The translations under genes were made by a program, and so were the position numbers. Below the pieces are notes generated by a model, which was not told the origin of the DNA, ran no database searches, and worked only from the letters and a program-made list of their open reading frames with translations. A stretch of DNA of 64,000 nucleotides from Tetracentron sinense (lineage: Eukaryota > Streptophyta > Magnoliopsida > Trochodendrales > Trochodendraceae), in the NCBI GenBank assembly GCA_015143295.1, contig CM026570.1, positions 12,052,047 to 12,116,046 on the forward strand, in the 5' to 3' direction. The stretch's first letter is position 1, and every line of letters starts with the position of its first letter. Of the stretch, positions 5,487 through 52,371 are shown one piece after another.

Positions 5487-5762
5487 ATGGCCTTCAAGAT
5501 AACCCAAATTATCATCTTTACAATCTTGATCCATAGTTTCATACTTCTCGCAACGGCGAGACCGTTGGGAAGAGAATTACAGTCGCTGAATGCAGGTCTC
5601 GTGTTAGAGTCTCTTAATGATGTTCCTGTGCCACCTTCTGGAAGTTCAAGTTGCTCCCACATACCTAGTCCAGGTGGTAAATGCACAATCAGTGAAATGA
5701 ATTTCGCCGGTAGTGTCTTCGCTGCACCGCCCCACTTTCACGATGCTATCAGTCGTTTTTAG
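5487..5762 (+). CDS. CTNIP/SCREW-like secreted signalling peptide precursor A1
   Basis: A 91-residue single-exon precursor. Residues 1-24 form a signal peptide: a Lys near the start, a hydrophobic Ile/Phe/Leu core, and ATA before a likely cut at R25. A variable propeptide follows. The core (residues 48-66) reads VPPSGSSSCSHIPSPGGKC, with cysteines C56 and C66 (CX9C). A 25-residue tail ending HDAISRF follows the second Cys. By family knowledge, CTNIP/SCREW peptides are small apoplastic ligands of the LRR receptor kinase HSL3/NUT that modulate immunity and water loss; the PPSG lead-in also recalls IDA/PIP peptides. The ATG at 5,487 is chosen because the signal peptide starts there and the paralogue shares it. 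A possible poly-A signal (AATAAA) is at 5,870-5,875. It differs from A2 at 10 of 91 residues. Family assignment is by motif; the function is inferred. Confidence 0.82.
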   Translation: MAFKITQIIIFTILIHSFILLATARPLGRELQSLNAGLVLESLNDVPVPPSGSSSCSHIPSPGGKCTISEMNFAGSVFAAPPHFHDAISRF

Positions 5763-6220
5763 TGCAGCCATGGTTGAGAACTAACCTAGTTGCCAAGTTC
5801 ATGGATCTTCATTTATCTCTTGGCTGTGATGAATTTCGTGCAACAATAGCTGTTTAATAACATTCAAACAATAAATTTCTTGTTTTATTTATGTAGTTTC
5901 TTAATCTGGAGTACTCAAAGGGTACTCATGTACTTGATTCCATGACTACCTTGTATTTGCATTGGTTTTAGAATTGTATTATGTAATCATTTCTGTGTTG
6001 AATAAGGAATATTTTCTATATTTGATGCATGGGTATAAGAGATACAATACAGAAAGTTTGCTAACAAAATTAGACCCCGTCTGGAATCTCTAGTCCTCTC
6101 GACTTAGCAAATCAGTTGGCTGTAGGTTTGCTAACAAAATTGCATAATAAGATTCATATTTCTGATCCAAGTATTTTGGGACAACGCATTGATAATGATG
6201 ATACGTATTGTACTTTGTAA

Positions 6221-6419
6221 CAAGGTTTAAAATTTCGAAATTTCGGTCGATTTCGGATGTCCCATTTGAAACGAAATTTTCCGAAATTTCGAAATTTCGG
6301 CCGACATCTCACCGAAATCGAATTTAATAATAAAATATTATTCTAAAATTTGATCCAAAATTTCGCCGAAGTATTCCGAAATTTCGAAATATTCCGAAAT
6401 TTTTATTTTTTATATAATA

Positions 6420-6479
<60 letters not shown>

Positions 6480-6748
6480 ATTTTTAAAATTAATATATAA
6501 ATTTTTTGAAATTTCACGAAATTTTAGTAAAAATTTCGGAATATTTCCGAATTTTAATTAAAAAATAATAAAAACAAATTATTTAAAAATAAAAAATCAG
6601 ATTTTGGCCGAAATTTTGAAATTTTTGAAATCCGAAATTTCACCCGAAATTTTCGAAATTTCGGCCAAAATCTGATTTCCAAAATAAACCCAGTTTCAAT
6701 ATTGGTGGGGATGTCCGAAACCGAAATTTCGCGAAATTTCAAACCAGG
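6221..6748. mobile_element. Mutator-like fold-back MITE
   Basis: The element is 528 bp, flanked by a perfect 9-bp duplication ACTTTGTAA (6,212-6,220 and 6,749-6,757), the size typical of Mutator-like elements. Its ends are inverted: CAAGGTTTAAAATTTCG at the left against CGAAATTTCAAACCAGG at the right. Most of the interior is built from GAAATTTCG/CCGAAATTT motifs on both strands, so the whole element can fold back. It contains a (TA)n run at 6,425-6,474. No transposase is encoded, so it is non-autonomous. Confidence 0.85.
6425..6474. repeat. (TA)n microsatellite
   Basis: An almost pure TA run of about 50 bp at the centre of the fold-back element. Confidence 0.95.
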
Positions 6749-6826
6749 ACTTTGTAATGAAAACTAACATAAAGTTGAATTTCAGGTAGTATGCGCCTTA
6801 GAAGAGATGAAGTTTATGCCCTATTT

Positions 6827-7015
6827 TAACCCACCAGGGGTTGGTGCAGTTGGCTAGCATCCTGGGTTTGCTCCCTGTGGTCATGTGTTCAACTCCCACT
6901 CCTTGACTTATTCTGGTATTCGTGGGGAAAATTACGAGTGGGCCAATGCGGGTACCCAAAAGGACTAGTTCTTGGCTCGAAGGCTTTGGGACTCCCTCCA
7001 TTATCATAAATAAAA
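6827..7015 (+). mobile_element. tRNA-derived SINE with intact target duplication
   Basis: The body is 189 bp, between perfect 17-bp direct repeats AAGTTTATGCCCTATTT (6,810-6,826 and 7,016-7,032). The 5' part has an RNA polymerase III A-box-like stretch (TGGTGCAGTTGG, near 6,842) and a B-box-like stretch (GTGTTCAACTCC, near 6,884) at tRNA-like spacing. It ends in an A-rich tail. The perfect duplication suggests a fairly recent insertion. It encodes no protein; mobilisation would rely on LINE enzymes. Confidence 0.88.
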
Positions 7016-8681: not shown

Positions 8682-8984
8682 ATGGATTTTTGCCGAGGTA
8701 ATTAAGGCACTTCTTTTTTCATAGATTAGTGTTAATCGGTACTATTTTATGCTCAAGATAATTCACTCTTTGTGTTAATAGTAGATAAGGGTAAGAGTTC
8801 GTGGCCGGAGCTCGTGGGTGCAAATGGAGAGGTCGCGGCGGAAATGATCGTGAGAGAGAATCCGAAGGTTGGTGCTGTAATTGTAAAAGAAGGAACGATG
8901 GTGACCATGGATTTTCGTTGTGACAGGGTTTGGGTTTGGGTTGATAAATGTGGCATTGTCAAAACGATGCCTCAAATTGGTTAG
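8682..8984 (+). CDS. Potato type I serine proteinase inhibitor (two exons)
   Basis: Exon 1 (8,682-8,697) encodes MDFCR plus one base, then GT at 8,698. The intron runs 8,698-8,784 with AG at 8,783-8,784. Exon 2 (8,785-8,984) continues DKGKSSWPELVG to PQIG and TAG, giving about 71 residues, a normal length. Family hallmarks are SSWPELVG near the N-terminus, VKEGTMVTMDFRCDRVWVWV in the middle and a C-terminal P-x-IG. By homology the reactive bond is Met-Asp within TMDF (P1 Met), so chymotrypsin- or elastase-like targets are expected. Cys4 in exon 1 and the Cys of FRC probably form the usual disulfide. There is no signal peptide. A Cys in VDKCGIV replaces the common Asn-type residue there. The splice sites are my reading; an upstream in-frame start inside the intron lacks the Cys. 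The likely role is defence against insect or microbial proteases. Confidence 0.88.
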
Positions 8985-9283
8985 GAGTACTAGCCAGTGT
9001 GGATTTTACATGATATAATTGAACTGTGAAAGGATGTTTCATGGTGTAATCTCATAGTTATGATGTATGTAGTCATGTAGGTATAATGTTTGTACTCAGT
9101 ATTAAACAAAAATAAGCCTCTTATCCGTTTATAATCGCCTTGCTTTGATCAAATTAAATGGAGATCTCTCTTGATGGAGCATATTCTAATATGTATCTTC
9201 ATGTGGGTATGTTGTTAATGCACAACTTTTCTCAAATCTTGTCATCGGGAGTGGTAAGTGGTTCACCCAATGTGGACGGAGAA

Positions 9284-9713
9284 TGTTGTGCGAAAGTGTG
9301 CAAATAACAGTGTAACGATCTAGAAAACAGTGAACAAATAACCAAACGGAAGAGAGAAAACAAACCAACAGAGAGACATGATTTACGTGGTTCAGCAAGA
9401 CGCCTACGTCCACGGGCAGCGATGATTTCTTTTATACAACGATGAGATTTTTTCTCAAACAATCACTTGGAAACCCTCTTTACAACACTTCCAAAAAATG
9501 GCTCCCTCTTCTCTCTTTTTTCCTTACGAACAAAACCCTAAAAAATCTCTTTTATATTAGCGTTACAATAAAGAGAAAATGGGTAAAATATCCAAAATGG
9601 GTCAGGCCTTAAATCGGGTCAAAATTTCGGCCGGGGGCTTCTCCCTTGGACCTCATCCAGGTCACTAAATGGGTCATCATGAATCCAGGTTGAATTCATG
9701 ACAACTTCCAACA
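9284..9713 (-). repeat. 3' LTR of the first copia element
   Basis: Plus-strand ends are TGTTGTGCGAAAG and CTTCCAACA. A polypurine tract (complement of AATCTCCACCTTGG) follows on the interior side. Confidence 0.85.
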
Positions 9714-12700
9714 AATCTCCACCTTGGCTTGAATTCTACCAAACCATCCAAAAACAAACCACGCTGCTTCTAAATGCGCCTTTAGGTGTCATGCACCCGA
9801 AGGTGCTTAAACTTGAGAGATATTGATCAAGTCCAAACAGTGCTTGAACTTGACCCCAATCACCACCTTAGTAAGCATATCTGTAGGGTTATCTGTAGTC
9901 TCAATCTTTTGAAGAATAATATCACTTTCATCCACAACTTCTCGAATAAAATGAAAACGAAAGTCGATATGCTTTGTTTGAGAATGATGAACCTAATTAT
10001 TTGCTAAACAAATTGCACTCTAACTGTTACAATAGACCTCAATGTGCTCCTGAATAATCCTCAAGTTCTCAATCAACCCATGTAGCCAAATGACCTCCTC
10101 AATAGCCTCTGTCACTGCCATGTACTTTGCCTCAATAGTAGACAAAGCAACTGTTGACTGTAATGTCGATCTCCAACTCATCGGTCCTCTGGTAAGAGTA
10201 AAGACATATCATATAGTTGACCGGCGCTTATCCAAATCACCAGCATAGTCTGAATCCACATATCCAACCATGTGCTGACTAAGCATATTATCCATCTCAA
10301 ATATTAACCCAACATCTACTGTACCCTGAATGTATCTTAAGATCAATTTTATTGCCAACCAGTATCATTTCCCTGAATCATGCATATATCTGCTCACCAT
10401 ACTGACGACATTGAAATGTCCGGCCTAGTACACACCATAACATACATTAGAGTACCAACTGCGTTAGCATTCACAATTTAAGCCATATACTCACGCTTCT
10501 CATTTGTGCTAGGAGACATCAAAGAACTAAGCTTGAAATGAAGGGCCAAAGGTGTACTTACAAGTTTTGGTTTTTCATCCATACCAAATCACTGTAACAT
10601 TTTCTTCAAATACTGTGTTTGTGACAAACAAACTTTTCCCTTCATTCTATCCCTTTTAATCTCAATACCCAATATTTTCTTAGCTTCCTCCAGGTCCTTC
10701 ATTTCAAATTTATTCTTCAACTAAATCTTCAACCTATCTATCTCCACCTTGCTCTTAGATTCAATGAGCATGCCATCTACATATAAGAGTGAATATATGA
10801 AGGAACCATCATGAAGCTTCCGACAATACACTGATCAAACTGACTTCTTGTGTACTTTGGCTCCATCATAAACCAATCAAATCGCTTGTACCACTGCCTT
10901 GGAGACTGTTTCAAACCATACAACGATTTTCTCAGTTTGCAAACCCAATTCTCTTTACCAGTAACCTTGTACCTATTTGCTTGGGACATGTATATTTCCT
11001 CCTCCAAATCATCGTGTAAGAAGGCAATCTTGATATTGAGTTGTGCTAACTCGAGATCAAACTGAGCAACCAAAGCTAGCAAAATTCGAATAGAAGAATG
11101 CTTAACGACTGGAGAAAAAAATTCATTGTTCTATCACTTCCTTTTGCGCGTAGCCTTTAGGCACCAATCTAGCCTTGAATCTCACACTGTCCTTTTTTGA
11201 AGAACCTTCCTTCTTTGCATATACCTACTCAACCGATTGCTTTCTTTCCATTTGGAAGCTGTACTAACTTCCAAGTCTGATTTTTGTCAAGTGACTCAAT
11301 CTCCCATTCATTCCCTTTTTCCACTCTGCATTTTCTGAATTTTTCAATGCTCTCTGTAAGTTAGTGGAACATCATCATCAACTACTGGAAGTGCATAAGC
11401 CACCAAGTCAACAAATCTTGTAGGTTTTCGAGCTTCTCTTCTAGGTCTACTGGCTGCAATAGAATTTGGTTGTTGTGGGGTTACATGAACTGAAGCTTCT
11501 TCTTCAACTAAACCTAAGTCCTCACCACCTGAATCTCCTATGAGCCTATTGACTATTTGAACCATCTTTATTGGAACCACTGGAGCCTCAAACTCCACCT
11601 GTTTCAAAATCCCATTTTTTATATTCTTCTTCTGAGAATCCTTTTGCTTCATTTGATTTACCATCTTAAACTCCACAAAAGTCACACCCCTGCTTAAAAC
11701 AAATTTATTTTCATCTGGACACCAAAGCATATATCCCTTCACTCCTGTGCTAAAGCCCAAAAATATAGATTTCTTGGCTCTAGGATCCAACTTAGTTTCT
11801 TTGACATGAAAATAAGTAGGACAACCAAATATATGCAAGAAATCATAATCTATAGCAGGTTTTCCAGACTACACCTCTATAGGCGTTTTTCCATCATTTA
11901 CAGCTGCAGGTAACCTGTTGATGAGATGACAGACATATGTCACTAGTTCAGCCCAGAACGCCTTGCCTAATCCGAAATTGGACAACATACATCGCACATT
12001 CTCCAATAAAGTATGATTCATCCGTTCTGCCACTCTATTCGGTATATCTCTAACCGTGAAGTGTCTAATTATCCCCTAGTCCTGACATACTTGCATGAAT
12101 GGATCTGACTTGTATTCACCACCAATATCTGACCTGAGACTTTTTATCTTTTTGCTAGTCTGGGTCTCAATCATTTTCTTCTACTGTAGAAACACATTCA
12201 AGACTTCACTTTTATGCCGCATTGTGTACACCAAACTTGCCTTGAGAAGTCATCAATAAATGTGACAAATCAATGTTTACCTCCCAAAGATGCAACTTTG
12301 GTAGGTCCCCATACATCTGTGTGAACATAATCTAGAGTCCCTTGAGTACGATGAACTGCTGTCCCAAACTTGACTCTAGTCTACTTGCCCATAATACAAT
12401 GCTCATAAAACCCGAATTTTCCAGTCTTGGCGCCTTTTAACAAACCATGCTTCATCAATCCTTGCAAATTCTTCTCTCCTGCATACCCTAAGCACATGTG
12501 CCATTGTTTGGAAGTATCAGACACAATCTCATCTGGGCTGTCAGAAAATGCTGCTCTCCTTGTACGTAATTGTATTCTCATCTAGAAAATACAAATTTTC
12601 CCGTTGAGTACCCTTCATTATCACAAACCTTTAGGACTCCACCTTTCATAGTAATCTTGAAACCTTTTGAGTCTAAAGAACCCAATGAGATGAGATTCTT

Positions 12701-13879
12701 CAAGTCCGGTACATACTGAACATCTGTTAGAATTCTAACTGATGTATTATGCATCTTCAACCAAATTTTTTCTATCCCCTTTGTTTTGCAAGCATTATCA
12801 TTTGCCATTAAAACAATTCCTCATTCTAACTCCTAAAAACTTGAAAATCAGTCCCTATTGGGACACATATGGTAGGAATAACCCGAGTCCAAAATCAACT
12901 CATTAGAATGACCAACTGATGGTGAAACAGTCAAAACAAATTCTGAATCATCATTTTCAAATTGTGCAACATTCACATTCAAACTCTTCTTTTCCCTGTT
13001 TTTCAATTTTGGACAATCGTTTTTCCAATGCCATTTATTACGACAAAAGGCCAACTCATCTTTTGCTGGAATTTTTCTTTCAGATGATGCTGCTCTTAAC
13101 TTTGAACGAGATTTACCCCGCCTACCAGAATTTCTATCATTTGATCTACCCCTTATAGTCAAAGCCTTTAATGTTGAGTTCCTATTGATTTGTTGGTCAT
13201 TCTTTCGATACTCATTATTCATCAAAGCATTTGATACATCTTCAAATTTAAGTTCATCTTTTTTATAAATTAAAGTAGTAGACAGATGATGATAACTATC
13301 AGGTAAAGAATTTATCAAACATAATATTTTGTCTTCATTGTCTATTTTCACTTCAAGATTTTGAAAATCAACGAGAATTTTATTATAACTATCTAAATGC
13401 TCAATAATAGTAGTACTTGATTTATACCCAAAATGTAAGGGTCTTTTCTTCAAATAGAGCCGGTTTTTAATGCTTTTGGTCATATACTTGTTATCTAATT
13501 TCTTCCATAACTTCTTAGCCGCAGTTTCTTTCGTCACAAATATTTCTGATCTTTAGCGAGACAAAGCCTGATGATGCCTCAAGCCTAGTGATTTATTTTC
13601 TTCAAATCCTTCTCTTCTATATCGTTGGGTTTATCCTCCAAATTAATATCCAACTCTTGTTGGATTAGAACTTCCAAAACTTCGCATTGCCACATGCCGA
13701 AGTTGTTCTTCTATCAAATTTCATAACTTCTAATTTTGCATTTGAAACAATAGGTTTGGTCACCGATGCGAGTCTCGAAGACGAAACTTTAACAACTGCT
13801 TCACTCGTTTCCGCCATTAATTCAATCTGCAGAAAATTAAACAATACCGATGTCGGAACCTGGGAGCCAGATACCAATT

Positions 13880-14287
13880 TGTAGTGCGAAAGGTGCAAAT
13901 AACAGTGTAATGATCTAGAAAACAGTGAATAAATAACCAAACGGAAGAGAGAAAACAAACCAACAGAAATATGATTTACGTGGTTCGGCAAGATGCCTAT
14001 GTCCACGGGCAGCAATGATTTCCTTTATTCAACAAGGAGATTTTTCTCAAACAATCCCTCAGAAACCTTCTTCACAATACTCCAAAAAAAAAAAGGCTCC
14101 CTCTTCTCTCTTTTTTTCTAACGAACAAAACCCTAAAAAATCACTTTTATATTAGGATTACAATAAAAAGAATATGGGTAAAAATACCCAAAATGGGTCG
14201 GGCCTTAAATCGGTTCAAAATTTTGGTCATCCGGGTTGCCAAACAAGTCATCATAAATCTGGGTTGAATTCATGACAACTTCCGATA
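13880..14287 (-). repeat. 5' LTR of the first copia element
   Basis: Begins TGTAGTGCGAAAG and aligns along its length with 9,284-9,713. It is followed by the GAGAA target duplication. Confidence 0.85.
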
Positions 14288-14520
14288 GAGAAAGATGATG
14301 GTTCTTCACTAAGGGCAAGGGAAGCACAGTACATGCATGTAGGGCTGGCAATGGATGGATCAAGAACCGACTTGATCCGGTTTGAATCCGATGATCCAAT
14401 CCAATTAGACTGGATCATGATCCCATTATTATAAATTAGTGGATCAATCATATTATTACCGAATTCTGATCTGTATATAGTAGTCCGATCTCTGATTTGA
14501 TTTCATATGTATATAGAGAG

Positions 14521-15649
14521 TGTTGAGTGTTGTTTATCGCCTCCACTCCCGGGTGCCGCGTATCGTGCAATTTTTCATGTGACCCTCTTATATTCATTAT
14601 TACTATTCTCTTCATCAGATCGGTCTTTTTGATTAGTTGGTTGTTAACATGGTATCAATGCGCTGGTTGCGATTTGGTCACAGGTTCGATTCTTTCCACC
14701 CTTTGGGTGAGGGGAAGTGTTGAGTGTTGTTTATCGTCTCTGCTCCCGGGTGCCACGTATCACTAGGGGTGGCAATTGGGCTGGGCTGGCCCAAAGCCCG
14801 ATTGTTCGGCCCGAAGTTTGGGTGGATTGAGCCTTCCTTATTTTGGGCTGGGCTGAGTTTGGACAAGACTATAGGCCCGAAGTAAATATTGGGTCGAGCT
14901 TGGGCTGCCCTTAGCTCAGCCCGAATTCAGCCCGACCCAAACTAAAGATATTTTATGTTTTTATAAATAGTATATATAGATAGAGAAGGCTCACGAGCTA
15001 ATTTCATTGAATTGGAATTGATGTGTTTACATGGAGAAACTCTTTTTGTGTTTGCTATCTAAGAATGTTACTTGTAGTATTTTTTTTTAAAAAAATTTAT
15101 TCTTAACCTTGTTTATCAAGGGTTTGAATCTAGTTCTTTTCCTATTGGAGAAACACTTCTCAAAATTGATTACTAGTTAAAAGAATTAGGTACCAAGAAC
15201 AGTGATTGCCTAATTTTACTAAACTCTAAATTTGTTTACTAATTAAGTTCTTGTTAATTGTATGAAGGTGTTTAAGGGAAAGTTAACAAGTAATTACGGG
15301 AGAACTTAGCCCGAAATCAGCCACAAGCTACTTAATTTGGGTCAGCCCGAATTGAACCCGAACTCGGCCCACACTTTGCTTACTTTGGGCCAGTCCGAAC
15401 TCAGCCCGAAGCCCGATACTATTTGTGAGCCGAGCTTGGGCTGGGGTGCTAGGGCTGAGATTGGGTTGGGCTGAGATTGGGATAAGGTTTTGAACTTTGG
15501 GCTGAGCTTGGGCTAACCCCAGCCCGACTTAGCCCGGCCCAATTGCCACCCCTATGTATCACGCCCCATTTGTCCCGTGACCCTCATAGATTCATTGTTT
15601 ACTACTCTCTTCATCAGATGAGTCTTTTGGAATAGTTGGTTCTTAAGAG
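14521..15649 (+). mobile_element. TRIM/SMART-type miniature LTR element, interrupted by a hAT MITE
   Basis: A 129-bp LTR (14,521-14,649, TGTTGAG...GTTAACA) is followed by TGGTATCAATGC, a good initiator-Met tRNA primer-binding site. An interior of only about 68 bp follows, then a purine tract (GGGTGAGGGGAAG) and a second LTR starting at 14,718. The second LTR is split by a hAT MITE (14,764-15,554) and ends near 15,649. Flanks read GAGAG on both sides, though they sit next to a GA microsatellite. It encodes no protein, and without the MITE it would be about 340 bp. It is absent from block 1. Confidence 0.8.
14764..15554. mobile_element. hAT-type non-autonomous element (MITE)
   Basis: 791 bp with terminal inverted repeats TAGGGGTGGCAATTGGGC and GCCCAATTGCCACCCCTA. 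The 8-bp target duplication is CGTATCAC (14,756-14,763) and TGTATCAC (15,555-15,562), with one mismatch. TAGGGGTGGCAA ends and 8-bp duplications are typical of hAT elements. The subterminal regions are rich in GGGCTGGGC/GCCCGA words. No transposase is encoded. It sits inside the second LTR of the TRIM and is therefore younger. Confidence 0.9.
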
Positions 15650-15660
15650 AGAGAGAGAGA

Positions 15661-15787
15661 GGTAATGCTAGCTCCACTTTCTTTTAAAGTCACATTTTCT
15701 TCGAGAGAAGACATGTTATGAACCAACACATTTCTTTCCCTTAAAAGAAAAAAAGGACTCCTAAAAGATAGTGGAGCTAGCATTACC
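15661..15787. mobile_element. Short MITE with about 30-bp TIRs
   Basis: 127 bp. GGTAATGCTAGCTCCAC at the left matches the complement of GTGGAGCTAGCATTACC at the right, with homology running further in. It has no coding potential. The target duplication is not clear because the left flank is a GA microsatellite. Confidence 0.75.
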
Positions 15788-16660
15788 CGTATATATTACT
15801 TTGTAGATATATTATAATACTACCCACAATTTTTTTAATTTTGTAATTAAAAGATTAATTTTTAAAGATATTATTACTAATCATATTAGATTCTGATCTT
15901 GAAGAAATTGTCGGATTCAAATTCAATCCAGCGAATCTGGGATTAGATAGAAATATGTCAAATTTAATTCAGATTCAAATATAGACAAATACGTATGAAT
16001 CCGATCCATTTACAGCCATAAGCACACATGGTGGCTTGCTTAGATCTCATATTTGCCATGAAGTCCGTCGGTCAAACCAATGATTATCTTCTCAAAGTAA
16101 TATAGCCTTTTTTTATGTTCTCTAAGTAAATCATCATATAACAATATAATAATGATAAAAAAGTGCAATAGAAAAGAAAAAAAGGGTTTGTGATAATTTT
16201 GAAATATTTTCTATTAAGTAATCTATTATCCTTATGCTTTAATAAATTCGATCGTTCTTTGCATTTTGCTCCTTCAGATTGGATCTAGTATAAATATAGG
16301 GAGCAACTTGCGATCAATTTGTAAGTTTCAGTCATCTTCCTCCAATATTAAATAGCTGAAGACACCCCCTGCACAACATGTTTGGAAGTGTGTGCATTTT
16401 CATGTTTGTACATTGATGAGACCACCATTTTATTGGCATTTCCACAGCAGTGAGGGTTATTGCTGATCCGAATTCGTACATCCAAAGCCATGTCTCTACG
16501 TATTATGCAAAGACACGGTCTGTGTTGTTCACTAGCATACCTCTTAAGGGAAAAAAAACTAAAAACTTCATAATGCCCCTTTTTTTTTTCTCTTCAGTCT
16601 TTATTATATCACGGTCAAATTTAAATTACCTTATTTTATTTTTTATATCCCAAATAGGGT
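15788..16660. other. intergenic, nothing recognised
   Basis: AT-rich with no element ends or gene seen. The 87-codon frame at 16,450-16,713 runs into sequence shared with a non-coding part of block 1 and is not called. Confidence 0.45.
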
Positions 16661-16669
16661 TATGCCGCA

Positions 16670-16860
16670 GATTTAGCCAACGATTACTAAAACAGTATAC
16701 TCCCAACTCCTAACGGTTTAACTCTATTATTAAACGGTTAGGATTAGAACTGATGTGACATTAGAAAAGATAAAATAAGCACAGCCAAATCATGGTCCTT
16801 AGTGGTTAGTTATAAACGGTTAGGATTTGAGAGTATATTTGGGAGTACCCATAGGCGAGT
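16670..16860. mobile_element. MITE with TIRs (block 2 copy)
   Basis: Same element as 3,318-3,510, with the paired CCTAACGGTTTA / TAAACGGTTAGG inner repeats and ATTTGGGAGTACCC end. Its left end is more degraded than in block 1. Confidence 0.6.
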
Positions 16861-17004
16861 TGATAAATGAGAGACTATTGAAGTTCTTAGTAAGAAACTT
16901 TTCTCATATCCTTCACTATACCCTAAAACTTTAAATGACCTCCCCTACCTTGATGGCATTAATTTCAGTCATGAAATAAATAATCAGATGATTTAATGGC
17001 AGCA

Positions 17005-34690: not shown

Positions 34691-34699
34691 GTTCTACAA

Positions 34700-39395: not shown

Positions 39396-39439
39396 TCCTG
39401 TAACCCTTTCCTTTAATCTAAGCATCTCATCTCTCCAAA

Positions 39440-39688
39440 ATGGCAATGAACTTTTACAGAGGAAATGGCCACAAGATGGTACAAATGGTTGCTTTTGTTT
39501 TCTTGATTCTAAGTTTCAGTCCTCTATCAATGGCAAGGGTCTTAGAAGGAGTGAGGCCGTCGATGAAGAATGGAGTAGGGTTAGTATCAATTGATAAAAC
39601 TCCGGTGCCGCCTTCCGGGCCTTCGCCCTGCACACATATCCCTGGCAATGGTGGCGGTGGTCGTCGATGTCCACCAAAACGTGGGTGA
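39440..39688 (+). CDS. CTNIP/SCREW-like secreted signalling peptide precursor B2
   Basis: An 82-residue single-exon precursor with the same plan as B1: signal segment to PLSMA (cut before R33), propeptide beginning RVLEGVRPSMKNG, core VPPSGPSPCTHIPGNGG, second Cys at 77 and end CPPKRG. It differs from B3 at only two residues (V14 versus I, I51 versus L). The PVPPSGPSPC lead-in matches the group A genes better than B1's LVPPSG. Promoter, TATA box and upstream W-box are intact. Its downstream region was invaded by a Helitron about 560 bp after the stop, which leaves the gene itself untouched. A signalling role through an HSL3/NUT-like receptor is inferred from the motif. Confidence 0.85.
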   Translation: MAMNFYRGNGHKMVQMVAFVFLILSFSPLSMARVLEGVRPSMKNGVGLVSIDKTPVPPSGPSPCTHIPGNGGGGRRCPPKRG

Positions 39689-42439
39689 ACTTCGTCAGCC
39701 ATGGCCAGCTCTCGGGATACAAGTTAATGGAAATAAGATGTAAATTAAACAAAAATATATATTTTTAGTTTCATTGTTATCTAGTACTATGGTCGGACTA
39801 AAGGAGTCGTTGTATTATATTAATATGATAGTTGGATTAATATTTGAATCACATACCATTTCTGCTCCATATGCTTCTCCATTGATACCAACACTAGGTT
39901 ACATGCAGCTTTTGAAAGAAATGGCACGTAGAGCTATCGGTGAAGCTAAATTCCCGAATGGTGCACTTTATGCTGTAACTAAAGTAACCAAGCTTCTACT
40001 TTAGCTCTACAACGGGTTACGAATTTTGCTTGCTCTACTAGCGGCACCCTTAATCGCCCTTTAGATCGGTAATAAACAATTTAAAAGTGCTTTGTCTTAA
40101 AAACTGCTTTAGGGTTTATTAAGGGTGTGACGAGTAAGGCTACTATTGCCATTTTAATTATGCATAGAGAGTGTAGATGATGGATTTTGGTAACGGTCAC
40201 GTGGCACCATCTCATCTCAGCGCACTCATAATTACTCCTAGTTCAATAGGTACTAGTAAACATCCCGTGCGATGCATGGAAAAGAAAAGAAAAATATCAA
40301 ACTAAAAGAAAGAGCAAAAATGAGTAACATGACATTAAAGTCATACTTACCAAAAGAATCCTAAAACATCATGCCTCAGTAGCTTATTCAGGGATGGGTA
40401 TACCTTGAGAGGATGAATTTTTTTTTTTATAGGTGAGAGGATGAAATCCTTCTGTTCTTGTATATTTAATGTCTAGAAAAAGAATTAGATAAATTTATAA
40501 TTTTAAAGAAAATGAACATCTAAAAGAGATCATTGAGCAAAAGAAGAAAAAGAGCGGAGTACTACAATGAAACTTTACCAACCAATGAATCAAAGCAGCA
40601 TCAAAATTGTGATCTGGATTCATCTAAAGATCTTTTGATTGGCTTGAATCCATTACTTAAACTAAAAAAGTATCTCAAAAACTAAATTTTGACTATCCAA
40701 CCCAATTTTCTCTATGAATTCCTCAAAAATTCCAAGTCATAACAATCCTGAACTACAGGAAAGAGGGAGAGCTACTTAACGGTCTAATATAGTAAGTGAT
40801 TACTTACATAGTAGAATTACAAACTGAAATTGTGATAGAAAGTGATACAAACAAATTCCAATACACAAAAAATCAAAATAACAATTAAAAGTAAAAGATG
40901 GCGCAATTCCCTAGATTGGGGAGTTTATGTTTTCAGCACAAAAGATTTTTCAGTTATAGTTAGATCTAGACTGCAACACAATAGAGGGAAGAACCCTCAC
41001 TGAAAGGCCTCTCCAAATTGCCTCTGTAACTCTCCTAATCTTCTAAAGGAATCCGCAGAATATCTTGACCATTCTGTAAGCATAGTGAGCACCAATACTA
41101 TCTTTACACAACCTTCTCCTATTTCCTTTCGGATGAAAAACACAGAGATCTTAAATCTGAAGAAATCCTAAGAAAAAGAGATAGACATACAAATAAATGT
41201 GAGTAATAATATTTCAGAAAGCAAATGATCATAGAAGGAAGTGAAAAAGTATGAGATCTTTTAAATTATATTCATGATTTTTTTTTAAAGTGCAACAACA
41301 ATCAAGCAATGGACTCTACCTAGCTAATGTAGTAATAAAATGGAACATCGGTCTAAGAATGAGCTGCTTTATTGGTGAATCTTGTGGGAAAATAGTCAAT
41401 TACTTCACATCCATATTATTAATGACATGAAGAATCTTTTTAATATACAAAGTTCATTTGATCAATTTAGAGAGTAGTGCAATCATTCATTCTACTTTCA
41501 TGGGTAGCACACAAATATCAATCCATCGTGCCAGCCATAAAATCAATGAAATTACATAATTAGACTTTGAAGAATGTAACCTGTAACTATAATAGGAAGT
41601 TTAACATATCATGGTGAAATCATAGGTTTAACCATGAACTTAACTGGCTATTTAAACATAAACTATGAGCACATATGAAGAAATATACCAACCAAAACAT
41701 TCTAATATTCATAGAAACTCTAATTGATCCCCCTTGTCCTTTTATTTTGTAACTACATTTCTCATCAATCATGGATGGCCATGTTGTGCTTCACTGGTTT
41801 TATGTATGTCTTTACTACCCATGTTCCTAAACTTGAAATAATTAGCAACAGACAACTCAATTCCAAAGTGCATGCTAATCACTAAATAACTATTAACAGT
41901 TGAGAGATTTTTGGTATATTTAACAAAGATTTCTATGGTAAAACACTAAATAACCAAATAAAACCCTAACATAAACACAAATCTGTCTAAGAAAAAAAAA
42001 ACTGAGAACATTTATGTGATGATACTTTGTTTGTTTCTATACTAAAAGCAATTGGCACCCGTTTGAGTGTCAACCTCCAAGAAGCTCACGATTGATACAT
42101 CTACAACATTCTTGTCACTCTCAGGGTCTTTATTTGATTGTACATGCTAATCACCAAAACAATTCAAAATTACTTGAGTTGAGAAACAAACAAAGTGCCA
42201 TCTTAGTAATGGGAAACAAATATCATACAGTCTGTAATTTCATAAATATTATGAACATGCTATGCTAAATAGCTAAGAAGATATGTAGGTTTTTAACTTG
42301 AACATAGCTGCAGAGAGGCTCTTAATTAGAGATTTTGTTTTTGTAAAGCAAAAGTTATGCTCATTAGTTTCGAAGACTTATCCAGCAAAACCCAAATAAA
42401 CAGACACAACGTAATATTGTCTTGAGAGAAAAAAAAAAT

Positions 42440-42962
42440 CAAACAATTTATGAGCACAATTCCTTTCGGTAAGTTATACCAAAACCCAACATCTTAATAG
42501 AACTAAACCCTAATTAAATAAATAAATAAGAAAGCTTATAGAACTGTAACAATCAAGATGAATTAGGATATAACTTACCAAAAGGAATGAAGAAGAAAAC
42601 AACAACACATGGATAAAGAGGAAATCCTCTCTGATCAGGGACTAAAGACCGGTGTACAAATCCCTCATGTCCTCCCGCTCTAAAGATTGCCGCCATGGGA
42701 TTCAACTTCGAGAACGTGCTGAGACTAACTTGTGAACAAAAGAGTATGATAAGAGAAAGGGACGTGATGAGATTGATCTATGAAGCCCGAATACAAATGC
42801 ATGTTGCTGTTGAAACTTGAAACCAAACAGTGACTGTGAGAATGCGGAGAGTACAAGGAGATGAGTCGTTCTGAAAGAGAAGTCGAGTCGTAACATAAGC
42901 ATACGGTCCATTAGATAATGAAATTGTGGATTTATTGTGGTGAATAGGGGATAATGAAAGAG
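42440..42962 (-). other. Possible captured exon inside the Helitron
   Basis: On the minus strand a purine/pyrimidine-rich leader-like stretch is followed by an ATG at about 42,697 (reads MAAIFRAGGHEGF) and about 100 bp later by TTTGGTAAGTTAT, a good 5' splice site. This looks like a first exon taken up by the Helitron. I do not recognise the product. No matching downstream exon is certain, though a CTTACAG-bounded stretch occurs at about 41,080-40,960. Confidence 0.3.
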
Positions 42963-42967
42963 TAGTG

Positions 42968-45185
42968 TGTAAGCACCCTATTTTTGCACCCCCTATTCCT
43001 CTTCCCACTTCTTCAAATGCTCCAAGGTTTACCCAAGGCCCAAGTAGTCAAGCCCAAATACCCAATCACCCAATTGCCTAAGCCAAAGCCTATTTCCATA
43101 GCTCAAGCCCAAATGTCATAGTCAAAGTCCAATAATCATAACCCATGACCCATCTACTAATAACCCATGATCCATAAGACCTAATCCATATATCCATATC
43201 CACCTACCCTATATCCTACAACCCATACCCATATAACCCATAGTTCACTCAACCCACCAACTCTCTTACACCTCTCTTATACCAACCCATACCCATATAA
43301 CTCATAGTTCACTCAACCCACCAACTCTCTTACACCTCTCTTACACCATATATCCTAGAACACATACTCATATAACTCATAGTTCACTCAACCCACCAAC
43401 TCTCTTACACCCCTTACAATACTCAACCATCAACTCTCTTACACTCCTTACAACACTCAATCTATCAACTCACCTTACAACACTCAAGTCTTTACCCACT
43501 AGCTCCTTTTATCCCTCATGTAAAAGACACAACCCAACCTCTTAGTTTTCCTATAAATACCAATCCCTTAGCTCCTTAGATTCATCCCTCAAGACCCCTA
43601 GAAGGTTCCCACCTACTTGTGTTTCTCTTAAGTTTGAAGAAGGGAGAAGAAATTAAGGTTTAGAGTTTGGAAAGAATTCTAAGACTAAAAGCTTAGAGTT
43701 CTTCACTAACTCTCTTCCTTTGTGGATTCTAAAACCCTACCCCTTGGAGCATTGAAGGAGAATTCTTGGAGGAGTAGGCACTCCTTCTTTCATTTTATCT
43801 TCTTTTTTATCTTTTTTCTTATTTGGTTCTCTCTTCTTGATCTCTCATTTCTCAAGCATAGTTGGGCCTCTCTACACCAATCTAATGGTGTAGAGGGACC
43901 CCATATCAAAGGCAAGGAGATGCTCATTTTTTCTTTTCCTTTCCATGTACATATTTTCTTCTTTTTTATGTACCCACAAGTGTGGATATGGGTAGGCCCA
44001 TAGAGAGTGGAAGTTAAAGCTATACCTCTCTTTTTATTTTGTTTTCTTTTGAGATTCTAGTCCTCTTTCTAGAATTTTTTGTGAAAGCTCATCCCCTCCC
44101 TAACATTCTTTAGAGCAACATTACATCATTAATAATGGTGTAAATGAACCACCTTAAAAGGGAGAGGATGAGTTTTCATTTTCTTTCATTTCTTTATTTT
44201 TCCTTCATGTTCTATGTTGAATGGGTAGGTGATGGTTTAAGGACTTAAGATAAATGATGGTGTAAGGACTTAAAGAGGACATTCTTAAAAATGTTTCATA
44301 CTAAAGACAATGGTATTTGATCTATTATCAACATCAATCCAACAAAATAGGTGTTGGTAATAGACCATTTACTATTCATAAGGCACATCCCTCTTTATGT
44401 CTTAAACTATAATCTTTTAGCCAAACTCTTGGACTAAATTTGACTTTAGTTAAGTTTGTCAAAACCTTACCTATATGAAAATTCAAAAACATGATAAAAT
44501 CTCAAAATACCAAAAACATGATAAAATCTCAAAACACCAAAAACATTCAAATATAACCAAAATATAAAAAACATTCAAATATCCCCAAAAATCTCAAAAA
44601 ATATAAAAAATACAAAAAGACCAAAAAGAGACTTGTAGGACCTCCTTAGTTTTGGTTAGCTCATCTAACCATGGATAAATACCCTCTAACCGCGGTTAGA
44701 CTTAACACTTGTGCACTTGACCTCCCCGGTCAACTAAACCATAGTCTTCTAGGCTAGACCCTTTGACCATCCTATGCACACACACACTCCCCCCTAGCCT
44801 CGGCACGGGCTCATGTGCCAGAACTACGCTCGGTCTGATCTCACCATGTGAGTACGTAGGCAACTCAACTCGGGTTCGACCCTAGCCATCTAGCTTTCTA
44901 TTTTTCTTGGATTAGCACTCACTTAAAAACTTTGGACATTTTAATTAAACTTTGAGATTATAATTGGCTTAAGTTTAGGGAGTAGGTAACCGTTATAAAA
45001 CGGAGGTCTTGGGGTGCCTAATACCTTCCCCAGGACTTAATCGAACCGCTTACCCTAACTCTGTAAAGACCATTTGCCTTATCCAAACAAACAAATACCC
45101 GGGACCCATCCCTAAGAATGAATAGGTGGCAACTCAAGTCAAACCATATAATTTTTAAAGTAAGTTGGAAAATCCCATGCTCACA
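42968..45185 (+). mobile_element. LTR-only insertion (solo LTR type), 2.2 kb, copy 1
   Basis: 2,218 bp starting TGTAAGCACCC and ending ATGCTCACA, flanked by a 5-bp duplication TAGTG (42,963-42,967 and 45,186-45,190). TG...CA ends, a 5-bp duplication and an internal TATAAATA (about 43,551) make it a solo LTR. The final third has GGGGTGCCTAATACCTTCCC and TACGTAGGCAAC words that I associate with long LTRs of Tat/Ogre-lineage Ty3/gypsy elements. A second copy, inverted, is at 60,506-62,774. The 93-codon frame at 43,722-44,003 is not considered a gene. Confidence 0.85.
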
Positions 45186-45572
45186 TAGTGATAGGCAGAC
45201 CCATGGATCCTATTTACTAAGCATTTAAGAGGGGGGGGGGGGGGGGATGCCTTAGGTTAGCAAATGGGATCCATGGCTCTGTTAACTATTTCCCATAATG
45301 AAATGAATGTTGGGAGAGAGATAGTGGGGGCGTTTAAGTGGAGAGTGAGAGGGAGTTTAAAAGTCTGAGTGAGAGAGAGAGAGAGATGGAGAGGCACAAA
45401 GGGTTTGGGTTGGGGGAAGATGAACGGGAGAAACGGTTTAAAGGGAGATCTTATCCTAACACGTGGCAAAACATAAAGTGGAGATTTTTGACATGTGGCA
45501 TCAATTTAGAAGAAACACAGAACTTTGAGGGTGTCCACGTGGATACACTTTGTAATATAATAGTAGTATAGA

Positions 45573-47424
45573 TATATCTTAAAGGCGCATGATCTGCCTT
45601 ACAAACACCTTTTATCTTTTTTTGGGGGTGTTATGGACTTGTAGTTTGGAGGGGGCCCAAGAATGGATTAGGGTTTATGATGCCATGGTTAGACTTGTCG
45701 AGTAAAAAAAGTTACCATCTGTCATTTCCTTAACCTATGATCTATTGTCAGACAAATGATGCTTAGGGTGGGCTTGATCATAACGTCCTAAGGCAGTTAA
45801 AATCTAATTGTTGAGCTATTAAAATAATAATAAATCAAATCTTAACCATCTAAGGGATCCCTTTTTCAGAGACTATAAATAGAGGGTTGGTATCATTAAT
45901 GATTCATTATATATTTTTGGAAATGAGCTCTAGCAAAACGATATTCTTTGCAACATCTTATTTCCCCAAGATATCATAGTTTCTCCCTCTTCCTCCTCTC
46001 CACATTCTTGATCACCATCTTTTAGCAAAATCAACATTGTCCGAACGGTTGGGATTACCAATTTAGGCGGACGATGGGACAATCTAAACCTTTCAAATTT
46101 TCTACACGGTATAGAGTGAAAAAAACATACATAGAACATAAGAATTATATATATAATCGACTGAGTAATGATCAAGTTGTGTTCTATGCAAGACCTTTGA
46201 CTTTCACCGACCCGGGTATTTGATTTTTTGTGTTCTTTTGCACCTGGGACTTTGAGGGTAAATTCTCAAAACTTTGAATTTTGTTGTTTAAGTACTAATC
46301 CAATTCATCACACTATCAGAAGTAATTGAAACACGACAAGCAAGTTCATATGCAGTCCTAGATGGTACCCAGTGGTAGGAGTGTCAACGGACACTATCCG
46401 TATCCAAATTCGTTGAATTGAATAATTATACGAATCAATATCTGGTGGAGCAAATTCAAATAGTAATTTTACTATTTCATATATCTTATTCCAAAAATAT
46501 CCGATCGATTATATAATTTATTACTATATATAACTAAGGGAAAGATTTATGCATCTGTCTACCCACTCCTATCCATCTCTAATGTGACAATGTTAGTACG
46601 ACTTACTTGGGTTCCAACCATATCTTCCATGCTCACACAAAGCATATCAAGATATATTTGTCGACACAAAATTTTGTGATTAGTGAATTAATCACAAAAT
46701 AAGGGATGAACAAATATTTATTTATTTGGAAGATGGTACAACTCTCAAGATTCCTCTGATTAACAGTCAAAATTTTCGGAAGTAGAAGATGAGAGTCGAC
46801 GCGTGATCTCGATCTTCTTTGAAGGTGTTGGTGTAGTTTTTTCTTTCTTCCGGGCTTTGTGCTTGATCGGTTATAAAGTAATTTTGGAAAGAACCGGCTT
46901 CTTTGTACCTTTGTCTTCTCTAGAATGCTTTGATTTCTTTTCTGTGAAGATTAGAGAATGCTTGACTTGTGTTGTTTAACGATTCTTCTAAATTCTCTTC
47001 TTTCGCTTTTTCTGAATCATCTTTCTGGATTTCTGAATCATCCCACAAATCTCTAGCTTCGAGCCTTATTTATAAACATTTTGTGATAAGAATTCCAAGA
47101 GTCCCACTTGATTTAGTAGTTTAAGGAACTTATGAGACTTTGATGGGCCCCACCCATCTTCTTGGCTATTGAGTCCATACTCAGGCCTCTTGTGTTGACG
47201 GATCAACTCATTTCTTGAGTGTGTGACCCATTTGAATTTGGACTTGGATTTTGGGCTTATGGGCTTTCTACTTCATGCCTAGACCTGAGGCGTAGGAGGC
47301 CCATGCCTTGTCATTAGGCTCAATTTTCATGTATAGGGTCTTTTAATGATTTTAGGCTCTTTGTACAATGTTATGAGCGTGTAGGGACCTTTGTATAAAA
47401 TTGAGAAATTTTAGGGTTCTACAA
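45573..47424. other. Unit 2 segment downstream of the Helitron
   Basis: Matches 32,914-34,700 of unit 1. It includes a TATA box (45,874-45,881) 49 bp before an 18-codon frame (45,923-45,979) and decayed LTR-like DNA. No firm gene. Confidence 0.5.
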
Positions 47425-47830
47425 TATTATCATTTTGTTCGAGAATGAGTGGTTCAAGGTGATCTATGGATTTCATTTATCTCCACGGAACATCAACCAG
47501 CTGACATTTTCACTAAGGGTCTCCCTAGTCCTCGGTTTCAGTGTTTACAATCCAAGTTGCTATCTCAATCACCATCAACTTTCAGGGGTGTATTAACCGA
47601 TATTCATGAATCACCAAATCCTACTATTATTGGAGATTCTAAAATGAGTCCTACACAACATAGATATCGTATATATCACTTAGGAAAGGAATCTAAAGTC
47701 TGTTGTAATCTTCCTTATTTATCTCTATGTATTTGTGTAACAATAGGACTTGTATCATGTATATATACATGAATGAAGACAAGTAAAAATCCAACTTTTG
47801 TTATTCAATTCTTTGCCTAAGCTTTCACTC
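47425..47830 (+). mobile_element. Ty1/copia 3'-end fossil (unit 2)
   Basis: Sister of the fossil at 34,700-35,110 (RNase H end plus LTR-like sequence). Broken. Confidence 0.75.
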
Positions 47831-50800
47831 TTTGAGAGCTACACTCACATAGAAAGAGAAACTCGTGACCCCAAAAACTCTATCACAAAGACATTCAAAT
47901 TATCAAATACAATTAAGCTTGTACCCTAGGCTAATATATAGTCTCAAACCAATCCTAAAACAAATAGAAATAGAAAAATCCTTCACCCAGAGAAAATCCT
48001 CAAAAACGAAGTCTAAACCCAAAAATATTCCCCCCCCCCAAAAAAAAGGCTAGTAAATTTAGCCACAGAAGTTGATTGACATTATGCAAGAGAGGAGTGC
48101 TAGCCCATATGCAGATTTTAAGTTTCCGAAGTCCCACTATAAGAGCAACACACTCTCAGTATGAGAGCAACATGTGTCTGCTACCCCTTCCACAAGTTAA
48201 AGAAACAATTTTTTTCAACCCCTTCAACAAGTGAATTAAACAATTCTTTGTAGTGAAACTGATTTATTAAGAATAGCTTGGATGATTTACAATGACCCCA
48301 TAGAGCTAGGGTTTAAATAGATGTTCTATGCCAAGACTCCTAATATAGAAAGATCTTTCAAAGATAATCCTAATTTAATCATACATAATCAAATTCTAAA
48401 TTCAAATTTAATTGATACTATATGATTGTGAAGAGATACACTGATAATGATATTCACTTTATTACAATAGGATATTCCCGAATACTAATAATTTTTTTCA
48501 ACAAGTTAAAGTTCAACCGGATAAGGAGGTACCAAGCACATGTCAGTACATGAGAGTTTGGAAGTCTGTGCCTAGGGCTAGCATTTCTCTTAACATGAAC
48601 AATAACCACTAATAATGTTGTCTTACTATAGCTAATGCGGTACTACTGTAAATGATGTTAAACATAGCGGCAATGTAGCCCAAGGCTTTAAAGGACTAAC
48701 AATCTGCTGATACATCACTAAAACGTCAAATGTAATCTTTTAAATTAGACCTAGTAGATTTGCCTTTTTTTCTTAGTAATAGTTGAAAATTGTTCTAGTG
48801 TAACGAGAGCTAATTGATTCTTTATAGCCTTGGACTACCAACACTATTGACACCAAGTTTCACTCCGATAAATGTTGGTAACACTATACTGGAATTGAAT
48901 TTTCGACAACATTCTAACAACCCCTCACCATGGCTTGAATTCGGTCAGGCCGCCAAATATGCTCTTCGTCCTTTTTATCCACCACGCCTGCTAAAGTGCT
49001 GGTAGGTGTGTCAGAGAGCCAAGCTTTAGCAACTCGCCAAGCCTAACTGATCTAACATAGTAAATTCGCTTCACAAATGAGCTGAGCTTTATCAAAAGTT
49101 GGCTCAATTTTAATAGTTTTATTTATTTCATCATTTTGGAAGATAACAATACTCTTTTATTTTATTTTGTATAGGACATGTGGTTAGACCACAAATTCAA
49201 TTAATGGTGTTAGCATCTGTTCATAAGTTAGAGGGTTAGAAGCCCATGATTTGAAGTTTGACCAAATGATGGGTCATCTCAACCACTAAAACCGAAGAGA
49301 GTAGAACCCTGCTCACCCCAATGTGGGAATACAAATTAACATTGTCACTAGCACAAGCAGTTGTACAATACCCTTTTATAATATATTGGGTTTTGGCATA
49401 TATATATATATAATTGTGACAAATTTAATGTGTATTTTTGTTAATGTAAAACCCTAGAGTTTAGTTTTATAAAATGAAAATTTTAAGTTGAATGTTATAA
49501 CCCTACATACACTCTAAAACCTTAATTTGTCTGGTTGCCCATTTTCTCTATTTTTTTTCTTTCTTGAATAATAGTAAACCATAGGGCTGAGCTAGGATTT
49601 TCTTGTAGGGAAGCAAGAAGGGTAGATTGAAAATGTTAGTAATTGAAAGAGATTTATGGAAAATAATTAGGCAGTACGAAATTCTAGGTCTAGGGGATGA
49701 AGGTTTCCAACTTCCAACCCCCTTGTTAGGGTTCGGGGTGTAACCCCCACCCCCCACAAAAATAAATAAATAAAATAGGACAAAGTTCAAAGATCATCTC
49801 GTTCGTACGTCTTATATGGTACTGTTTCTCCTTTAGGAGGAAGTTACCCCCTTGCCCATGGGTATGCATTGTTAAAAAATTAAGTAATGTGTAAAAAAAA
49901 GTTAAGGGGCAACTGCCCACATGCTCCGTCCTGGTAAACCAAACCCCAAAGCAATAAACCTGGCCCCTTTTTTCCACTCTGATTAGATCAAAAAAGAAGA
50001 TGATAAATATAGAATAAATGATAGCTAAGGATCATCTTCTACGGTGTATTGCAACTAAGAATATCCCCCATGAAGAAATAATACAGACTACAACATGAAC
50101 CCTAAGGATATTTTTTTTGGGACTTGCTGTGGATTTTGTCTTACTAGATTTTTGATTAATTTCAGACACTAACGGAAGATTTGTTGATTTTATGTTATTA
50201 TTCCACTTAAGATAATGGTTCCATGACTGATTTTGTGTGTTTTGGTGCTCATATAACTTCAATGTGATGCAACAGGAAAGTACCTGGAATAATGGACACC
50301 CACTGTCTTGTTGATTCTTAGGAATACCAAAACAAAAGGAAAAAAGAGAAAATATTTTCAAGAAACTACAACATTAATCAAAACTCTCTTTACCTTGTGG
50401 TTTACCTTGCGGCTTACATCTATAACCAAGAAAACACGAAAAATTACTAAAAATAGTAAAATTGAATTAATCACGGAAACTGCTAATACTAAAGCCTAGA
50501 ATCAAGGCAGAATCAACGATCCATGATCCTGACTTCCAAAACTATATTTATTATTTAAAACAAAACTTTTCAAAAATACCAAAATCGTTATTTTTGAAGC
50601 ATAAACGAAGGAATTTAACCAAAAAGTAAAAGTCCATGATGAAGTGATTCAAACCGATCAACTCGATATGCAGTCCTAGACGGGACCTAGTGGCCTGTCA
50701 CCTATCCCAAAAGATACTAGATCAAATCCAACGATAAAAATGCCAAGAGTATGTCTACGACTCAATCCAGATTTATTCTATAACACATACACAATTACGC

Positions 50801-51454
50801 ACCCTATAAAATAAAATCCGAAGATAAAATTTAGTTAGTGGCATAGTGGCAAAGTCAGGGTTCGGTAATAATTCGGCAAGGGTCAAGTTCGGAAAAATTC
50901 AGGAAAAAAAAACAAAGAAATATTCGGGAACAATTCGGGGAAAAAAATAATTATTATAAAAAGAAATTCAACAATTTGATTAGATAATACCCAAAATAAG
51001 CAATTTACTTTGTCAAACTAATGAATTATTGCAAAATTTGCGAATGATTCGAGAAAATCGACAAACCTAAAATTCGAGAATAATTTAGAGAATAATTCGG
51101 CATACCTAAAATTCGAGAGTTTTTCAACAATTCGGAGAATTTTTCAAAAGAGTCTCCAAAGGAGGACTCCAAGGTCCTCTTCTAAGATGGCCGCAGTGTC
51201 CTTGTGTCCCTTTTAACACCTCTTTAACCATGGTCCAGCTTAATTCAATTAAAATTAATAATTTTTCTTTTTTTTTGTTTTTTTAAAAACCTTGGTTAGA
51301 TTGGTTAACCTAACCACAATTGATGGGAGGTAAAAAGAGGGCGTGGACCAATAAGATCATGGTGTCAACTTCTAAGCTGACCTTGGGTCCTTTTTCCATT
51401 TTCTTTTTCAAAAATTTGAAGAATTTTGTTACTATATTTAGTTGATGGCAATTT
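47831..51454. other. Unit 2 distal segment, no firm gene
   Basis: Colinear with 35,111-38,647. It holds the C/A tract (48,031-48,047), the exon-like stretch (48,923-49,005), an AATTCGG-rich stretch and a TTAACC-family copy (51,190-51,360). An extra 85 bp at about 48,625-48,710, also in unit 3, is missing from unit 1. Confidence 0.45.
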
Positions 51455-52068
51455 TTAGTCCGTCTTTACGTCTCTCTTGTGTGAAAAACTTGTGTGAAAA
51501 AATTGGCATAGATGTTGCATGTGCTTAGACTTTGCTAGCTGCTACCGCTTTGAGCAAACAACGTGGAATATGCATGAGAGTTATCTGAAATGTCGTCCCC
51601 TTCCATATCAGAATCACCACTAAGTGTATCCAAAACTTGACTTTTGAGTACTTAGATTTCATGAATTTCGATGAAAGGCATAGATCCCTGATTGAAACAT
51701 TAAATGTTCTTCATACTTATCTTTGGTTAGTCCTCCATTCAGCATTTAGGGAAATTATTGGGAAGTCTCATTACTAGAAAGGTCAGCACTCTAGAGGAAA
51801 ACATCTACTTATCTGATGGTTAAAATCATTCCTATCAAAATGGTCAACAAACACTTCTCGTGGGTCCGCTTACGCAACGGTCCAGATTGATATAGTATCT
51901 TAAGTAATGTAGAACTTGAACTATCCCATAACGTTTGGTCATTAATATAGAGACCGCGTCATTTTATCATAAGAGGAGACCTTGGTCGGCCATTGCCGGT
52001 GCTACTAGTCATCCTTACCCACCTCACTGGTCCATAGATATGAAGAAACGAAGGCTAGAAAAAACTCC

Positions 52069-52078
52069 TATATAAATA
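52069..52078 (+). promoter_or_regulatory. TATA box of gene B3
   Basis: TATATAAATA, with a 2-bp TA expansion relative to B1 and B2, 45-54 bp before the ATG. Confidence 0.75.
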
Positions 52079-52122
52079 TGCTGTAACCCTTTCCTTTAAT
52101 CTAAGCATCTCATCTCTCCAAA

Positions 52123-52371
52123 ATGGCAATGAACTTTTACAGAGGAAATGGCCACAAGATGATACAAATGGTTGCTTTTGTTTTCTTGATTCTAAGTTTC
52201 AGTCCTCTTTCAATGGCAAGGGTCTTAGAAGGAGTGAGGCCGTCGATGAAGAATGGAGTAGGGTTAGTATCACTTGATAAAACTCCGGTGCCGCCTTCCG
52301 GGCCTTCGCCCTGCACACATATCCCTGGCAATGGTGGTGGTGGTCGTCGATGTCCACCAAAACGTGGGTGA
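52123..52371 (+). CDS. CTNIP/SCREW-like secreted signalling peptide precursor B3
   Basis: An 82-residue single-exon precursor nearly identical to B2: I14 instead of V in the signal segment and L51 instead of I in the propeptide. The predicted mature region is unchanged: VPPSGPSPCTHIPGNGG, basic RR, second Cys at 77 and CPPKRG end. Its promoter has the W-box (51,842-51,847) and TATA box. B2 and B3 would release the same peptide, so the pair provides dosage or divergent expression rather than a new ligand. Receptor assignment (HSL3/NUT type) is inferred from the motif. Confidence 0.85.
   Translation: MAMNFYRGNGHKMIQMVAFVFLILSFSPLSMARVLEGVRPSMKNGVGLVSLDKTPVPPSGPSPCTHIPGNGGGGRRCPPKRG

Follow-up and report, generated by a model that had tools for sequence, protein, structure and literature searches.

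A 47-kb cluster of five genes that very probably encode small secreted precursors of the CTNIP/SCREW kind

The Arabidopsis peptides CTNIP1–4 are ligands of HSL3/NUT (PMC9191895). The active CTNIP4 peptide comprises residues 48–70, the last 23 of the precursor. It binds HSL3 at about 4 μM with recruitment of BAK1, and both cysteines are required (PMC9191895). The effects described are on calcium, ROS, MAPK and root responses, and bacterial susceptibility was unchanged in the mutants and with the strain tested (PMC9191895). The SCREW work (Nature 2022) is taken here from reviews (PMC11331138, PMC13056886, PMC13157962, PMC12907539, PMC9715534), some of which relate that stomata reopen in response to SCREW peptides (PMC13056886, PMC13157962, PMC12907539). 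Recognition of CTNIPs can be species-specific (PMC11331138, PMC9191895).

CTNIPs are known from Amborella, eudicots and monocots except grasses, and over 40% of them are unannotated (PMC9191895). In that study, the confident set was chosen out of a 'relaxed' set by the presence of two cysteines at a spacing of 9–11 residues. Closely numbered paralogues occur in Arabidopsis (AT1G06135/AT1G06137 and AT2G31335/AT2G31345; pairs CTNIP1/2 and CTNIP3/4; PMC9191895). A PSGP core is shared by CTNIP, CLE, PIP, CEP and IDA peptides (PMC11331138). A PVPP-type motif of 12 residues, PVPPSGPSPCHN, was described for 7 genes that were called IDA-like CLE (PMC7552357).

The window is the whole 64-kb stretch of DNA that was analysed (36.5% G+C, zero N), and its gene content points to plant DNA. 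It very probably contains an array of five CTNIP/SCREW-type genes for small secreted precursors: a type A pair and three CTNIP-like genes of type B. With Arabidopsis CTNIP1–4 they have in common a short, putatively secreted precursor, a two-cysteine core, the motif C-(T/S)-x-I-P and a close placement of paralogues; a spacing of 9 residues between the cysteines is common to type A only. They differ from the Arabidopsis peptides in the H that replaces the N of the motif, in the C-terminal tail of 25 residues in type A, in the 12 residues between the cysteines in type B, and in the grouping of five genes of two subtypes within 47 kb.

Gene set and precursor anatomy

An earlier note on this DNA had described five intact single-exon precursors, each with a signal peptide, a conserved TATA box and the same C-terminal core. 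Five single-exon open reading frames, intact from ATG to stop, are indeed present on the forward strand. A1 (5487–5762) and A2 (19296–19571) encode 91 residues; B1 (31415–31663), B2 (39440–39688) and B3 (52123–52371) encode 82. The N-terminus is hydrophobic in all five, with a best 12-residue hydropathy of 2.50–2.73 within residues 8–24. The hydrophobic stretch ends with ATA/R in type A and SMA/R in type B, in agreement with the –3,–1 rule. An N-terminal signal peptide is therefore predicted, by hydropathy only, for every precursor. The start context is AAAATGGC in the five genes. TATA boxes were found at –188 (A1), –177 (A2) and –52 (B1, B2 and B3). In each of the A1 and A2 leaders, about 80 bp are duplicated internally. 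Within 1 kb upstream, W-box-like sites number zero for A1 and A2, one for B1, and two each for B2 and B3.

The core reads VPVPPSGSSSCSHIPSPGGKC in A1 and VPVPPSGSSSCTHIPSPGGPC in A2, with the consensus VPVPPSGSSSC(S/T)HIPSPGG(K/P)C, TLVPPSGPSPCTHIPGNGGSGGRC in B1, and TPVPPSGPSPCTHIPGNGGGGRRC in both B2 and B3. The two cysteines are residues 56 and 66 in type A, with 9 residues between them and a tail of 25 residues after the second, and residues 64 and 77 in type B, with 12 residues between them and 5 after. The two-cysteine core announced by the note is thus common to the five genes but not uniform. Four genes have CTHIP and A1 has CSHIP: H replaces the N of CTNIP in all five, A1 has in addition S for T, and the literal CTNIP is found in none. 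In a six-frame scan of the whole window, PPSG[PS]S and C[TS][HN]IP were confined to the five genes.

The A1 and A2 proteins are 89% identical, and those of B1, B2 and B3 are 94–98% identical, with two residue differences between B2 and B3. Type A and type B proteins are 46–51% identical over 61 residues, with E-values of 1.4e-11 to 7e-15. When each protein was compared to the window by tblastn, the other four were found at E 1.4e-11 or better. As the next match had an E-value of only 0.16, no sixth copy was found in the window with any of the five proteins. The five precursors share common descent.

Duplication history and neighbouring elements

The duplicated flanks reported by the note were found as well. 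A1 and A2 align over 804 columns with 88.9% identity, B1 and B2 over 766 columns with 95.3%, B1 and B3 over 766 columns with 95.6%, and B2 and B3 over 944 columns with 97.4%. Self-BLAST delineated a left A copy (518–6037), which contains A1 and matches in patches of about 78–89% identity, and a right A copy (8933–19863), which contains A2 and is split by a copia-type element detected with Pfam. The B triplet consists of unit 1 (31031–38803), with B1 and about 7 kb of downstream DNA; unit 2 (38941–51619), with B2, interrupted at approximately 40253–45571, as read from the junctions, by some 5.3 kb of unrelated-looking sequence absent from the other units; and unit 3 (51623–57069), with B3 and a right side shorter than in the other units. 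The B units are mostly 92–97% identical, with one stretch at 83.6%. B2 and B3 are the closest pair of the triplet, with identity at 746 of 763 sites, compared to 730 and 732 of 763 between B1 and the other two.

The upstream DNA common to B2 (38642–39053) and B3 (51489–51735) has its counterpart at 27967–28329, 2.7 kb from B1. Owing to this displacement, the upstream DNA of B1 differs from that of B2 and B3 beyond about –385. The 2.7 kb beside B1 may reflect either an insertion or a deletion; a transposon origin was considered, and no target-site duplication was present in the junction letters.

The cluster grew by two duplication series, which produced an older A pair and a younger tandem B triplet amid copia debris. 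Among the matches listed, no flanking DNA longer than 80 bp is common to the A region (1–20 kb) and the 20–58 kb region, so that A and B probably separated long before either series began. A shared origin for the tail of A and the 3′ flank of B, hinted at by a five-way alignment, is not supported, as shuffled sequences reached the score in 51–75 of 1000 trials in four comparisons.

Pfam was run on thirty frames of the neighbourhood. The open frame 8736–8981 (+), on the left edge of the right A copy, matches potato inhibitor I, a family of protease inhibitors (PF00280, E 5.9e-27). The left edge of the left A copy has a broken remnant of a potato inhibitor I exon in two frames (482–566, +), with tblastn E-values of 2e-6 for 507–566 and 0.41 for 482–514. 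Before the A duplication, the inhibitor may have lain next to a type A gene. The copia-type element (9284–14283) occurs only in the right A copy, with RVT_2, SH3_retrovirus and gag frames on the minus strand. It is bounded by direct repeats (9284–9709 and 13880–14283) that are 83% identical and are probable LTRs. Copia-type pol and gag frames are also found on the minus strand to the right of the B array (57925–60523 and 62732–63958). Inverted repeats with 92–98% identity are located at 43029–45188, within the sequence that interrupts B unit 2, and at 60502–62502, adjoining the right-hand copia frames. A DUF4283 frame at 2385–3017 (–; E 4.2e-23) is probably of retroelement origin. Repeated frames with ADIFTKGLP, which we take to be the end of a copia RNase H, are present inside the B units at 47449–47769 and 54762–55001 (+); the first had no Pfam match. 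An Rfam scan gave no match at the gathering score. A 'tRNA' called by ARAGORN at 6834–6907, with a two-letter anticodon, was regarded as due to chance.

Family assignment and coding constraint

No Pfam family was matched by the five proteins with E-values up to 10. The PDB was queried with full A2, full B2, the A2 core, the B core, a profile of the five proteins and a 26-column profile of the core. The sole match of the A2 core was 9wum_B, a 23-residue chain named 'Transmembrane protein' (E 0.91; PVRGSGRNGCTNIPRGSGRC aligned to PVPPSGSSSCTHIPSPGGPC). The five-protein profile had two matches, the top one being 9w1s_C, a 43-residue chain also named 'Transmembrane protein' (E 0.42), and the second a calcium channel (E 3). 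Full A2, the B core and the core profile matched nothing in the PDB; full B2 matched no CTNIP chain, and its two matches (E 0.58 and 5.8) were put down to chance. Taken alone, E-values of 0.91 and 0.42 lack significance. 9wum_B and 9w1s_C match each other, both carry the letters CTNIP, and both end two residues past the second cysteine, whereas type A runs 25 residues past it. The spacing of 9 residues between the cysteines of 9wum_B is that of A1 and A2. It is presumed that both chains are CTNIP peptides, from the letters CTNIP and from the 23 residues, which is the length of active CTNIP4 48–70. No mention of 9WUM or 9W1S was found in the literature searched.

As a control set, every stop-to-stop frame of 30 residues or more in the window, 1085 in total, was scored against both chains. 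The five genes occupied ranks one to five, with ties, in both cases. Scores against 9wum_B were 53, 53, 45, 45 and 38, with the next frame at 34; scores against 9w1s_C were 56, 54, 50, 50 and 45, with the next frame at 36. A1 was tied first with 9wum_B and tied third with 9w1s_C. B2 and B3 were tied third with 9wum_B, and were second and first, respectively, with 9w1s_C. B1 was the weakest of the five, ranking fifth with both. The mature parts were also shuffled 2000 times and scored against the same chains. None of the 2000 shuffles reached the scores of A1 and A2 with either peptide. The score of B2 was reached by 2 (9wum_B) and 1 (9w1s_C), that of B3 by 2 and 0, and that of B1 by 26 and 8. 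The alignments between genes and peptides span 20 to 28 residues. Searches outside plants gave 288 pattern stretches in viral contigs and 165 in prokaryote genomes, of which none was confirmed as a relative, as expected of a plant gene.

The precursor lengths of 91 (A) and 82 (B) residues are under the 150-residue criterion applied to CTNIPs in PMC9191895. The spacing of 9 residues in type A is within the 9–11 filter of that source, and the spacing of 12 in type B fails it. Judged by their sequences, A1 and A2 are assigned to the CTNIP/SCREW family. Because of their spacing, B1–B3 are filed only as CTNIP-like paralogues of A. Type B may well work like CTNIP, since the filter is an operational one and the descent shared with A is clear. 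The CTNIP/SCREW identity put forward by the earlier note is accordingly retained for type A and softened for type B, all five genes being the best matches of the window to both PDB peptides.

Membership of the CLE family was rejected on a comparison by eye. The CLE motif has 12–13 residues and ends with P-x-H-N/H; the sequence found in the cores of the five genes is S-(P/S)-C-(T/S)-H-I-P. It is very unlikely that the genes encode IDA-like peptides, either IDA itself or the PVPP-type 'IDA-like CLE', in place of CTNIPs. The PVPP-type motif (PMC7552357) is the printed string closest to type B, as its first 10 of 12 letters, PVPPSGPSPC, are identical in B2 and B3, and it fits all five genes with none of 2000 shuffles reaching the score. 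It continues with HN, however, where B2 and B3 have THIPGN, and the set, which was named from this 12-residue motif in 2020, before the CTNIPs, may itself consist of CTNIPs; we suspect that its genes are CTNIP-like too. IDA, PIPPSAPSKRHN, aligns over the PxPPSxPS stretch that it has in common with the window genes, with shuffles reaching the score in 15 (A1), 27 (A2), 5 (B1), 0 (B2) and 2 (B3) of 2000 trials. Only its first eight letters align, it has neither cysteine nor C-x-H-I-P, and its KRHN end is absent from the window genes. All five of these have two cysteines as well as C-(T/S)-H-I-P, and their match to the CTNIP peptides covers a longer stretch; IDA/IDL membership was rejected on these grounds. 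Also very unlikely is a separate secreted two-cysteine family that would resemble CTNIPs in the core only and act on another receptor. The lack of a Pfam match, the loop length of B and the tail of A, which deviate from the deposited peptides, would be in line with it. Against it, the likeness reaches upstream of the core, where VFQALQRGPV of 9w1s_C resembles VLESLNDVPV of A2, and the five genes top the 1085 frames. The CTNIP/SCREW reading is preferred.

The note had pointed to intact frames. All five are intact, but this alone is weak evidence, since a stop arose in only 24–35% of neutral simulations at the observed divergences. No gap column is present in the four coding pairs compared. The flanks do contain gap columns: for A, 34 over 300 bp upstream and 16 over 150 bp downstream, and for B, 2–10. 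For A1–A2, dN/dS is 0.28 (Fisher p 0.004), from 11 changes of each class, synonymous and nonsynonymous, and 10 amino-acid changes were observed where 15.4 were expected on average from neutral simulation (P 0.008). For B1–B2, dN/dS is 0.30, with 6 synonymous and 6 nonsynonymous changes (Fisher p 0.044), and 6 amino-acid changes compare to 8.6 expected (P 0.083). For B1–B3, with dN/dS 0.47 (p 0.21) and 6 amino-acid changes compared to 7.2 expected (P 0.28), and for B2–B3, with dN/dS 0.31 (p 0.24), the changes are too few for significance. From dN/dS and the simulations together, coding constraint is supported for type A and only suggested for type B. The 19-codon A core by itself gives no sign of constraint between A1 and A2, as its three changes are all nonsynonymous. 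There is a minor but real chance that some copies, most likely in the B triplet, are recent unexpressed duplicates heading to decay, which would be compatible with the CTNIP/SCREW reading for the others. The B copies differ little, 70–76% of such copies stay free of stops in the neutral simulation, and both the non-significant B1–B3 ratio and the different DNA upstream of B1 beyond about –385 are consistent with decay. On the other side, the three B frames are intact, and identity between B2 and B3 is 97.6–98.7% in the three 250-bp bins that hold the gene with its proximal promoter, compared to 91–98% in the other bins, a modest contrast that fits constraint or local gene conversion. In an unlikely variant, type B, marked by PVPPSGPSPC and by a loop longer by three residues, would form a subfamily of its own whose preference has moved to a different receptor, either a HAESA-type one or a further HSL3 paralogue. 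It would be retained next to the canonical type A, and the locus would provide two different signals.

Proposed action and significance

By analogy with Arabidopsis, the precursors would be secreted with removal of the signal peptide, and a C-terminal peptide with the two cysteines would be set free. This peptide would bind the LRR receptor kinase HSL3/NUT with the co-receptor BAK1. Ca2+, ROS and MAPK signalling would follow, and stress, stomatal or root responses would be tuned. The extra gene copies may provide a higher dosage, and possibly a diverged expression or affinity.

The genes are real, the family call is sound, and the growth of the cluster by local duplications is ordinary. The note had presented the locus as unusual and possibly undescribed. 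Five genes of two subtypes do lie within 47 kb, and no described CTNIP/SCREW gene cluster is named by title among the literature matches listed, but a local CTNIP cluster is in itself ordinary, since the Arabidopsis CTNIP1/2 and CTNIP3/4 already form closely numbered pairs. Interest remains in the two forms found side by side, one in which a loop of normal length is followed by a long tail, and one in which the loop is longer and the tail nearly absent. The case suggests that the published 9–11 residue filter would discard clear paralogues. A family of stress-signalling peptides gains a sizeable local expansion while the concept of the family is unchanged. As the cysteine loop occurs here in two natural forms, the genes could help to map the loop lengths and tails that HSL3 tolerates.
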